From positions 1 through 36,604 of the forward strand of contig LCOA01000005.1 of the NCBI GenBank assembly GCA_001002405.1: a DNA stretch of 36,604 bases, written 5' to 3'. The notes beneath the pieces are model-generated. The model worked only from the letters and a program-made list of their open reading frames with translations. It was not told the DNA's origin and made no database searches. This document shows positions 32,586 through 35,759 of the stretch, piece after piece (position 1 is the first letter of the stretch; each line of letters starts with the position of its first letter). The translations under genes and the position numbers were made by a program. The stretch is from Candidatus Amesbacteria bacterium GW2011_GWA1_47_20. Its GTDB lineage: Bacteria; Patescibacteriota; Microgenomatia; CAZETR01; Amesbacteraceae.

Positions 32586-33434
32586 ATGCATTGGGTCACC
32601 GTCAAATGTGGTTGGTGTAAAAAGGAATACAAAAAGAATATATACCATTACCTTCAGAATCAGATTCTGGGCCACAAGTCTTTTTGCTCCCAGAAATGTT
32701 TAGTCACAAGTAGGCTGCGAAGGAAAACTGTGGTTTGCGAAAATCCTAAATGCCAAAAAATGTTTGAGAGACCAATTGGCCAGATTTCTCATCACAACTA
32801 TTGTTCTCATCGTTGTGCAGCTTCCATGACCAATCTTTCAAGACCAAGAAAAGTTAGGATTTGTCCTAACTGCCAGAAAAAATTCTTTGAACACAGAAAG
32901 TATTGCTCACTCATATGTGTTCCTAAGACACAACCTAAATATTCGAGAGAAGATTTATTAAACAAAATTAAGAGGTTCCATAAACTACACAAAAGAATCC
33001 CCATTAAAAAAGAATTCTATTCCAATTGGCAAGCGTATCGTCGGATTTTTGGCAGCTGGAACAAGGCTATTCAAGAAGCTGGATTTATCCCCAACTTAGA
33101 GAGATTTACTCACAAATATCTTGCCCGAGATGGCCATATTTGCGATTCTTTATCAGAGAAAATAATCGACAATTGGTTAACAGTGCATCATCTTTCTCAT
33201 GAACATGGTGTATGTTATCCCGGCCAGACTAAATTCAAAACCGACTTTTTAGTCGAAGACAAGCATTGGATCGGATTTCCGGGACTGCGGGGTCAGCTTA
33301 AACGTTACGATGAACTATATGAAGAAAAAAAGGAGTTAACCAAAAGACTTAAAATAAAAATAGTTGAAATTCTTCCTACAGATATTTTCCCTAAAAACCA
33401 ACTGGATTCCAAGCTGGGCTTTCTGCTACAATGA
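32586..33434 (+). CDS. Multi-zinc-finger, homing-endonuclease-associated-repeat protein with C-terminal PD-(D/E)XK-like nuclease fold (possibly degenerate)
   Basis: Three Cys clusters (CGWC...FCSQKC; CENPKC...YCSHRC; CPNC...YCSLIC); YSREDLLNKIKRFHKLHKRIPIKKEF...FGSWNKAIQEAGF; C-terminal LSEKIIDNWL...FKTDFLVEDKHWIGFPGL...KRYDELYEEKKELTK. Confidence 0.6.
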   Translation: MHWVTVKCGWCKKEYKKNIYHYLQNQILGHKSFCSQKCLVTSRLRRKTVVCENPKCQKMFERPIGQISHHNYCSHRCAASMTNLSRPRKVRICPNCQKKFFEHRKYCSLICVPKTQPKYSREDLLNKIKRFHKLHKRIPIKKEFYSNWQAYRRIFGSWNKAIQEAGFIPNLERFTHKYLARDGHICDSLSEKIIDNWLTVHHLSHEHGVCYPGQTKFKTDFLVEDKHWIGFPGLRGQLKRYDELYEEKKELTKRLKIKIVEILPTDIFPKNQLDSKLGFLLQ

Positions 33435-34234
33435 AACCTGTGATTGCTACGTTCAAAGAAACCCTAGCCAGCTTGCAAGACCTCAAGTATGGCCAGATTA
33501 TTCTCCAGAAATCGGTCGGTCAGGCACTGTGGTATTGGACCAAATATTTACTTCTGATTATCGCCATCGGTGTTATTCTAGCTATTGCCGCTCTTACTTA
33601 TTACGCTCCCCAATTGCCCAAAATATTAGGTGACCAAATTCCCGACGTTGATCTCACTATCACTTCAGGCATAGCTTCAACCACTGTCAAGCAACCATTT
33701 ACCGCCGGCGATGACAAATTTATTTTCATTCTAGACACCACAGGCAAACTGGAAGATCTGGATAAATACCCCGCGGGCGTCCTGATTCTCGCGGACAAAG
33801 TCGTGGCCAAGAAAGATTCCGCTGACATCCGCATTTACCCTCTCAAAGATTTTCCCGACGGGACCTTCACAAAAGATATAGTTTTAAATTGGGTCAAAAA
33901 TAATCAACTTCTCATTCTTGGTCTCGGCGCTAGCGCCATCCTGCTGTTTGCTATTTTCATCACCGGTTTTACCTGGCTTTGGAAACTTGGAGGTATGACC
34001 ATTTTTGCTCTTCTGGTTTGGCTCGCCTCCCGAGTTATCAAACGCACTATCAGTCTGGCCGATTCCCTCAAGCTCGTTCTCTACGCTTCGGTTCTGCCGA
34101 CTCTCGTTGGTACAGTCTCTGTCCTTTCGCCCAACTCCCAAATTTCTAGCATCATCCAGCTCGCCCTGCTCCTTCTTTACTCCCTCGGCTGGCTCTGGTA
34201 CTTACCAGCAGGTAAACCTGCCAAGTCAAAATAA
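33431..34234 (+). CDS. DUF1189-like multi-TM membrane protein
   Basis: KETLASLQDLKYGQIILQKSVGQALWYWTKYLLLIIAIGVILAIAAL; several C-terminal TM helices; alternative GTG start at 33440. Confidence 0.65.
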   Translation: MKPVIATFKETLASLQDLKYGQIILQKSVGQALWYWTKYLLLIIAIGVILAIAALTYYAPQLPKILGDQIPDVDLTITSGIASTTVKQPFTAGDDKFIFILDTTGKLEDLDKYPAGVLILADKVVAKKDSADIRIYPLKDFPDGTFTKDIVLNWVKNNQLLILGLGASAILLFAIFITGFTWLWKLGGMTIFALLVWLASRVIKRTISLADSLKLVLYASVLPTLVGTVSVLSPNSQISSIIQLALLLLYSLGWLWYLPAGKPAKSK

Positions 34235-34252
34235 CGGTATCATCCTCTTCGA

Positions 34253-34279
34253 TTCTCCCTCTTAATCTAAGAGGGAGAA
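34253..34279. repeat. Left palindrome TTCTCCCTCTTA-ATC-TAAGAGGGAGAA
   Basis: Perfect 12-bp arms. Confidence 0.9.
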
Positions 34280-34624
34280 AGTAATTCGTTCAAGAATTTT
34301 ACCAATATTTTTAGTTATTCCCAAGTTGTGAAATCTTACAACTGTTATGTTAAAAGCTTCCAGATATCTTGTTCGATATTTATCATACTTTTGCTGCGAA
34401 GCGTTAAAGTGAACGTTGCCATCTAGCTCGATAGCCAGTCTTTTGGCAGGACAATAAAAATCCACAACGTAACCTTCAATACTATATTGGCGAATGAATT
34501 TAAACCCTAATTTTTTGTTTTGTAAATATTTCCACAACAACTTTTCTTCAAACGTTGCGCTGTTACGTAACTCCTTGCGCCTATTTTTCATTTCAGAGAT
34601 TTGTAGGTGAAATAAGGTTTTCAT
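34262..34624 (-). CDS. DUF559 (Vsr/PD-(D/E)XK-like) endonuclease-related protein
   Basis: RRKELRNSATFEEKLLWKYLQNKKLGFKFIRQYSIEGYVVDFYCPAKRLAIELDGNVHF...YLEAFNITVVRFHN. Confidence 0.9.
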   Translation of the reverse strand: MKTLFHLQISEMKNRRKELRNSATFEEKLLWKYLQNKKLGFKFIRQYSIEGYVVDFYCPAKRLAIELDGNVHFNASQQKYDKYRTRYLEAFNITVVRFHNLGITKNIGKILERITFSLLD

Positions 34625-34637
34625 AAGAATATTGTAA

Positions 34638-34660
34638 CCCCCTCTTAGATTAAGAGGGGG
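34638..34660. repeat. Right palindrome CCCCCTCTTA-GAT-TAAGAGGGGG
   Basis: Perfect 10-bp arms. Confidence 0.9.
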
Positions 34661-34683
34661 AAGGGGGTGATACAACTTAGCTC

Positions 34684-34721: not shown

Positions 34722-35759
34722 ATGGCTACAGATCAAAGAATGCAGGCGATCAAAATCGCCATGGAACAAATTGAGAAACAGTTCGGTAAGGGATCGATTA
34801 TGAAACTGGGAGACAAGACCGACAAAATGACCGTGGACGTAGTTCCCACCGGTTCCATTGCTCTCGATCTGGCTCTGGGTGTGGGCGGGTTCCCCCGTAG
34901 CCGGGTCACCGAAATTTATGGTCCCGAGGCATCGGGAAAAACCACCATTGCCCTGCACTGCATTGCCGAAGCCCAAAAATTGGGCGGCCAGGCCGCCTTC
35001 ATCGACGCCGAGCACGCTCTCGATCCGGCCCGGGCTGAAGCCATTGGAGTCAAACTCAATGATCTATATATCTCTCAGCCGGACACCGGTGAACAAGCCC
35101 TGGAGATAGTAGAGACTCTAATCCGCTCCGGCGCTTTTGACGTCATCGTCATCGATTCCGTGGCCGCCCTGGTTCCCCGCGCCGAAATAGAAGGGGAAAT
35201 GGGTGACGCCATGATGGGCGTTCAAGCCCGGCTTATGTCTCAAGCTCTGCGCAAAATTACCGGCGCCATTTCCAAGTCCCACACCGTAGTCATCTTCATT
35301 AACCAGCTGCGTATGAAAATCGGCGTCATGTTCGGTAACCCCGAAACTACCACTGGCGGCATGGCCCTCAAATTTTACTCGTCGGTTCGCGTGGATACGC
35401 GAAAGATCGAGACTCTCAAAGATGGGGACAAAGTTATCGGTTCCCGTCACCGGGCCAGAATCGTCAAAAATAAAGTCGCTTCTCCTTTCTCTGTAGCTGA
35501 ATTCGATATTTTAAATGAAGGCGGCATTTCCAAATCCGGTGGTCTGATCGACGTGGGACTGGAACTGGGCATACTAGTTAAAAAAGGCGCCTTCATCTAT
35601 TATGGAGACACAATTCTAGGCCAAGGCCGTGAAGCCGTCAGAATTTATCTCAATGAAAACCCAAAAGTCGCTAAACAAATCGAAGACGCTATTTGGAAAG
35701 CCGCTAAGGAATCCAAAAAAGCTCTTCCCAAGCAAATGGGTGAAATCGAAGAAGAATAA
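34722..35759 (+). CDS. recA: Recombinase RecA
   Basis: [78 protein letters not shown]. Confidence 0.99.

Follow-up and report, generated by a model that had tools for sequence, protein, structure and literature searches.

What kind of element occupies the short interval between a DUF1189 gene and recA in Candidatus Amesbacteria bacterium GW2011_GWA1_47_20, where a single nuclease gene of the DUF559 family lies between two palindromes? The window analysed here is the whole stretch of 36,604 nucleotides, taken from a draft host genome of 692 kb in 37 contigs. A first-pass annotation, made from the sequence alone, had proposed an undescribed mobile element analogous to REP/RAYT or homing systems, with the DUF559 protein as the probable mobility enzyme. 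The segment is likely an autonomous single-gene mobile element composed of a repeat unit, the DUF559 nuclease gene and the inverted unit, although the role of DUF559 as the mover is inferred and rests on no biochemistry. The features of the locus are as follows.

34237..34249, plus strand: left outer inverted repeat GTATCATCCTCTT, the third, C/G-rich arm of the left unit; 11/13 to the reverse complement of 34661-34673; its terminal inverted repeat (TIR) type, TATCACCC, also occurs in gene-less units elsewhere in the genome.
34253..34279, no strand: left inner palindrome TTCTCCCTCTTA-ATC-TAAGAGGGAGAA; DNA hairpin of -11.1 kcal/mol, z -4.7.
34262..34624, minus strand: DUF559 (Vsr-like PD-(D/E)XK/EDxHD-type) nuclease gene, 120 aa from its ATG; PF04480 E 1.6e-29; AlphaFold pLDDT 90.9; best PDB folds 3HRL and I-Bth0305I.
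34638..34660, no strand: right inner palindrome CCCCCTCTTA-GAT-TAAGAGGGGG; DNA hairpin z -4.0.
34661..34673, plus strand: right outer inverted repeat AAGGGGGTGATAC, the third, G-rich arm of the right unit; read from the sequence.
34237..34673, no strand: the whole cassette, 437 bp; no copy upstream of recA in 13/13 other genomes of the family.

The DUF1189 gene stops at 34234 on one side of this segment and recA starts at 34722 on the other, and the order between them is outer inverted repeat, palindrome, DUF559 gene, palindrome, outer inverted repeat. A sequence search of the window places the exact 19-mers CCCTCTTAATCTAAGAGGG at 34257-34275 and CCCTCTTAGATTAAGAGGG at 34640-34658. Each is a self-complementary hairpin and the two are mutually reverse-complementary, within hairpins of 27 nt (34253-34279) and 23 nt (34638-34660); the two palindromes also form direct repeats of each other. 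Shuffles yield 0.25 matches to the 19-mers per window at three or fewer mismatches, against 2 in the window itself, both with 0 mismatches. The outer arms, GTATCATCCTCTT and the reverse complement of 34661-34673, GTATCACCCCCTT, are identical at 11/13 positions and at 8/9 of their first 9 bases. The last codons of the DUF559 gene (FSLLD*; ATG at 34624, stop at 34262) overlap the left palindrome, and an alternative TTG start at 34675 would carry the reading frame through the right one. The structural claims of the first-pass annotation therefore held: the palindromes are mutual reverse complements to the base, the outward homology is 11/13, the left palindrome encodes FSLLD*, and a single DUF559 gene lies between DUF1189 and recA. 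In family terms, each cassette end is a composite unit, a palindrome together with a G-rich outer arm. Folding as single-stranded DNA gave z values of -4.0 to -6.3 versus shuffles for both window ends and for one gene-less unit from elsewhere in the genome. As a separate observation, the region at 32586-33434, just upstream of the DUF1189 gene, encodes a zinc-ribbon protein that contains an HNH_repeat (PF18780, E 7e-13) associated with homing endonucleases; because it adjoins that gene, two nuclease-associated genes lie near recA.

The window protein matches PF04480 at 102.4 bits against a curated cut-off of 20.6. The closest PDB folds to its AlphaFold model, as ranked by Foldseek, are 3HRL, a Neisseria DUF559 protein, and the catalytic domain of I-Bth0305I (Foldseek E 6.7e-5, TM-score 0.75 to the target; profile match E 0.0016), with Vsr (1CW0, 1VSR) and TnsA ranking lower. 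A profile search also placed 3HRL and I-Bth0305I as its top two hits, and at the profile level several phage homing nucleases are related too. Residues E26, D54, E65, D67 and H71 (numbered without the Met), the active-site acids and His, are invariant in 32 sequences. Selection on the protein is evident from a dN/dS of 0.03-0.13 between separated same-genome copies, so the protein has been kept working; truncated DUF559 copies exist too. Only 9 viral relatives were found in IMG/VR and 2 in phage records, and the notion that DUF559 is chiefly a phage gene was rejected on this basis.

These relatives bear on what such a protein might do. I-Bth0305I, a homing endonuclease of the EDxHD (Vsr-fold) type, has its catalytic fold in common with DUF559, but is intron-encoded and multi-domain with a target of about 60 bp, whereas the DUF559 protein is a catalytic domain alone, with palindromic ends, no intron and no additional domain for DNA binding. 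The very-short-patch repair endonuclease Vsr (PF03852) is likewise related in fold, and a YcjD profile detects Vsr, near which YcjD has been placed (PMC1189080). Vsr, however, is tied to cytosine methylases and its genes in the same phylum lack such palindromes, whereas most DUF559 loci are bracketed by them. The Caulobacter DUF559 protein VsrA brings about an SOS response when a methylase is missing, which has been read as repair gone wrong (PMC12907096); this response may point to DNA damage inside the cell by a member of the DUF559 family. To our knowledge, no PD-(D/E)XK protein moves an element alone, and TnsA requires partners.

DUF559 genes are carried by 8/14 genomes of the host family and 101/381 of the phylum, in up to 8 copies. 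After loci at contig ends were left out, 111 loci of the phylum were searched for a palindrome within 170 bp on each side, and palindromes were found on both sides at 88/111, on one side at 19/111 and on neither at 4/111. Control windows 400 bp further out held one in 11/217 cases (5%), and Markov shuffles in 15/666. Among 78 loci of named genomes from Patescibacteria, Proteobacteria, Chloroflexi, Nitrospirota, Omnitrophota and others, 57 bore palindromes on both sides and 18 on one, against 9/151 controls. Bracketed loci also occur in Cyanobacteria, Deinococcus, Sinorhizobium, Sphingomonas and Azospirillum (plasmid and mislabelled chromosome records), and units of such type lie beside the DUF559 genes of E. 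coli and Neisseria. The second DUF559 gene in the genome of the window is bracketed as well, with its own end type, GTAACTCACCC...CCCTCTCTTA. One or both palindromes are missing at about a fifth of DUF559 loci. True Vsr genes (PF03852) of the same phylum bore palindromes of this type on neither side (0/17), and a simple Vsr or repair gene was rejected as an explanation accordingly. The cassette is thus a member of a widespread and, as it seems, undescribed family of tiny one-gene elements.

Some members were noted for their surroundings. A cassette with matched palindromes lies between sufB and sufC of the suf operon on a Sphingomonas parapaucimobilis plasmid (L153 1390-1875), and another within the 4-hydroxyphenylacetate (hpa) gene cluster of Deinococcus sp. 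NW-56 (L150 1390-1902). In one genome, two DUF559 matches of equal score lie on one strand about 240 bp apart (G265:C13:33253-33573 and 33818-34138), possibly a tandem duplication of the cassette.

The two ends of a cassette are matched to one another. Across 54 cassettes in 20 genomes, the left-right palindrome match was 0.558 within a cassette versus 0.267 for sister cassettes of the same genome (p=2e-4). Palindrome similarity also follows protein identity across families (rho 0.24, p=0.001; permutation maximum 0.125). More than half of the ends have a third, G-rich arm next to the palindrome, where shuffling leads to an expectation of 7% per flank, and the side of the palindrome on which it lies agrees between the two ends of a cassette (44 concordant, 7 discordant). 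A rule that this arm always points outward was rejected; it is outward in the family of the window and mostly inward elsewhere.

The cassette moves to unrelated sites as one block. The recA site is unoccupied in 13/13 further members of the family, among them a congener whose RecA is 97% identical, and for a second-locus cassette (G221, at G221:C41) the empty site is seen in three sister species, where the flanks are about 75-84% identical. On plasmids of Synechocystis sp. B12, cassettes split a DUF1156 gene and a pglX gene, which codes for a BREX-type methyltransferase (L147 1819-4343; L148 1674-5081); the homologues of these genes in other cyanobacteria are uninterrupted. Same-genome copies (G218, G282, G148) are 78-83% identical over about 465-535 bp, bounded by the units and with unrelated flanks. 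The most alike cassettes in different metagenome-assembled genomes (L200 and L208) are 94% identical over 350 bp, again between unrelated flanks, although the taxonomic distance between their hosts is not established. A target-site duplication was sought at recA, at G221:C41 within its genus, in the cyanobacterial plasmid genes, and in Azospirillum, S. meliloti and E. coli, but none was definable, because no near-identical pair of filled and empty sites was found (CPR flanks are at best about 73-84% identical). The collection held no empty relatives for S. meliloti. Less than 80% of the ycjD region is present in about 2000 E. coli genomes; the ones examined have an efflux operon beside sapF, not a clean empty site.

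Palindromes on both sides could also be explained if a horizontally acquired gene were flanked by ordinary bidirectional terminators or by hairpins that stabilise mRNA. In favour of this explanation, the hairpins lie between genes, and those of Azospirillum are found in terminator-like AAAGCCCC...GGGGCTTT contexts. Against it, a terminator T-tail is absent at both window palindromes, true Vsr genes are without such palindromes, and units are found inside the coding genes pglX and DUF1156. Neither the outer repeats nor the left-right co-variation of the palindromes would be expected, and the movement of matched ends and gene as a block speaks against it as well. The terminator explanation is thus very unlikely. 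The first-pass annotation had named three outcomes that would refute the mobile reading, namely DUF559 genes generally lacking the palindromes, the palindromes being generic terminators, and vertical synteny of the cassette conserved in relatives. None was borne out: palindromes flank most DUF559 loci on both sides within and beyond the phylum, controls and Vsr genes largely or wholly lack them, and all 13 relatives lack the cassette upstream of recA.

Units without a gene also exist in the genome of the window, with the same end type as the cassette. Four loci other than the cassette, on contigs 7, 20, 24 and 29, have gene-less TATCACCC...CTCTTA units, whereas ACTCACCC...CTCTCTT is confined to the second cassette; reversed control patterns gave 0 matches in this genome for either type. 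The palindrome CCCTCTCC-N5-GGAGAGGG is present in 29/381 genomes of the phylum, and DUF559 in 24/29 of these versus 77/352 of the others (Fisher p=6e-11). This association is uncorrected for phylogeny and its counts take in cassette ends. Copies reach 50, 35 and 33 in genomes with 4, 4 and 2 DUF559 genes, respectively, and DUF559 is missing from 5/29 of the palindrome-rich genomes.

Hairpin repeats of the BoxC/PIT/triplex type have been known since the 1990s. First named BoxC, later PIT and later TM, for intrastrand-triplex motif, they have the consensus CCCTCNCCC-N3-6-GGGNGAGGG-N3-GGGNGAGGG (PMC4666352). They are found in more than 260 genomes, and the source of their mobility is not known; no remnants of a transposase or integrase, and no mobility gene, had ever been found near them (Holder 2015; PMC4666352). 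The window units match this form at both ends, with a CTCTTA stem and a third arm, GAGGATGATAC / GGGGGTGATAC. As the stem contains AT, they have the same architecture and not the literal E. coli consensus. That literal consensus is fitted by cassette ends of another genome (G148; L097, L111), and an exact copy lies downstream of ycjD, the DUF559 gene of E. coli, in K-12 MG1655. The window units are thus of BoxC/PIT/TM architecture, consisting of a C-rich arm, a short loop, a G-rich arm and a third G-rich arm, although triplex formation is inferred and only hairpin folding was computed. The BoxC/PIT/TM repeats share with the cassette ends a pyrimidine-purine hairpin and a third G-rich arm, but have been described as gene-less and dispersed, whereas in the cassette two units bracket a nuclease gene. 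The repeat class is one already described (PMC4666352), and what is apparently new is its link to DUF559.

Other known systems resemble the cassette in part. REP/REPIN sequences with RAYT (TnpA-REP) have the same layout of a gene between inverted hairpin repeats along with dispersed gene-less copies, but the RAYT enzyme is a Y1 HUH tyrosine nuclease, whereas that of the cassette is a DUF559 Vsr-fold nuclease. Since an HUH enzyme is absent and DUF559 is the sole gene, the cassette is not a REP/RAYT member, although with this layout it works much like one. IS elements and MITEs likewise have terminal inverted repeats, derivatives without a gene and empty sites, and move as blocks to unrelated places; the cassette differs from IS elements in having no known transposase, and with the available flank identities no target duplication was found. 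In the open-access literature searched, no paper on a mobile element built around DUF559 was found. As the defining features of no known family are all met, the element is rated new, with the mover role of DUF559 still inferred. The proposal of an undescribed mobile element is therefore upheld: mobility is well supported and the DUF559 link is apparently new, though the repeat class is not. The designation of DUF559 as the mobility enzyme remains the best inference and has not been shown, there being neither a target duplication nor biochemistry.

In the mechanism favoured here, the DUF559 protein would recognise its own units, probably in the form of extruded or single-stranded hairpins or triplexes, much as Vsr-type enzymes act on distorted DNA, and would nick or cut at them. 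Host repair or replication may then copy the unit to a new location, either alone or together with the gene, and gene-less units would be moved in trans. Additionally, recombination between the two palindromes, as direct repeats, could drop the gene and leave a solo unit.

The main rival, less likely but possible, is a homing variant. It holds that the units spread by another route and that a free-standing DUF559 gene cuts a resident unit and is copied in by gene conversion, so that a cassette is a unit split by a gene. In its favour, the window cassette can be read as a solo unit (as on contigs 29 and 24) opened within the palindrome; a Pseudanabaena pglX homologue has two in-frame palindromic units without DUF559, and a gene-less unit lies there at about the place of the Synechocystis cassette; and a homing endonuclease, I-Bth0305I, is among the nearest solved folds, with several phage homing nucleases among the profile relatives. 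Against it, units match within a cassette and differ from those of the genome's other cassettes, whereas homing into varied resident units would be expected to produce mixtures, except where conversion replaces the two together, and units are rare in genomes without DUF559. Most of the evidence is common to this variant and to the main reading, which differ in whether the empty allele has a unit.

Alternatively, the gene could be cargo, such that a MITE-like pair of units is moved by an unrelated transposase and carries a Vsr-like repair or defence gene. A catalytic link of DUF559 to the units has not been demonstrated, and members of the DUF559 family have been interpreted as repair enzymes of the Vsr type, as with VsrA of Caulobacter (PMC12907096). 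However, the nuclease gene is the only one in the cassette, which has no linked transposase, bracketing of this one gene recurs across many phyla where cargo would be expected to vary, and palindrome type tracks protein sequence. Cargo is thus an unlikely explanation.

Under the preferred reading, of an autonomous element, the DUF559 nuclease is by inference the best candidate so far for the enzyme that spreads BoxC/PIT/triplex repeats, in the absence of cleavage or transposition data. A bolder reading, towards which the balance tips only slightly, posits a new class of bacterial transposable elements mobilised by DUF559 proteins. Its members would be autonomous cassettes in which two triplex-forming hairpin units enclose a single Vsr-fold nuclease gene, and they would generate in trans the BoxC/PIT/TM and look-alike palindromic repeats of many bacterial phyla. 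Repeats without a known source of mobility would thereby gain a concrete, testable enzyme, and one candidate, the ycjD product, sits in E. coli K-12. If true, the Vsr fold would join the short list of DNA-moving enzymes, and an abundant "domain of unknown function" family, usually annotated as a repair nuclease, would acquire a function. Against a mobile reading stands ycjD itself, which is at a fixed locus in E. coli and looks resident there.

Rearrangements were also observed around some of these loci. In the sapF-fabI interval of E. coli (L236-L239), an efflux operon adjoins sapF in many genomes where K-12 has ycjD, and in strain EC21Z-063 about 106 bp have been lost between two short-repeat copies at the ycjD end, leaving ycjD truncated. 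On Azospirillum plasmids (L155, L284-L286), nirK is found next to a DUF559 cassette in some cases and missing in others, with the change located at the palindromes, which fits the reported link between triplex motifs and rearrangement.
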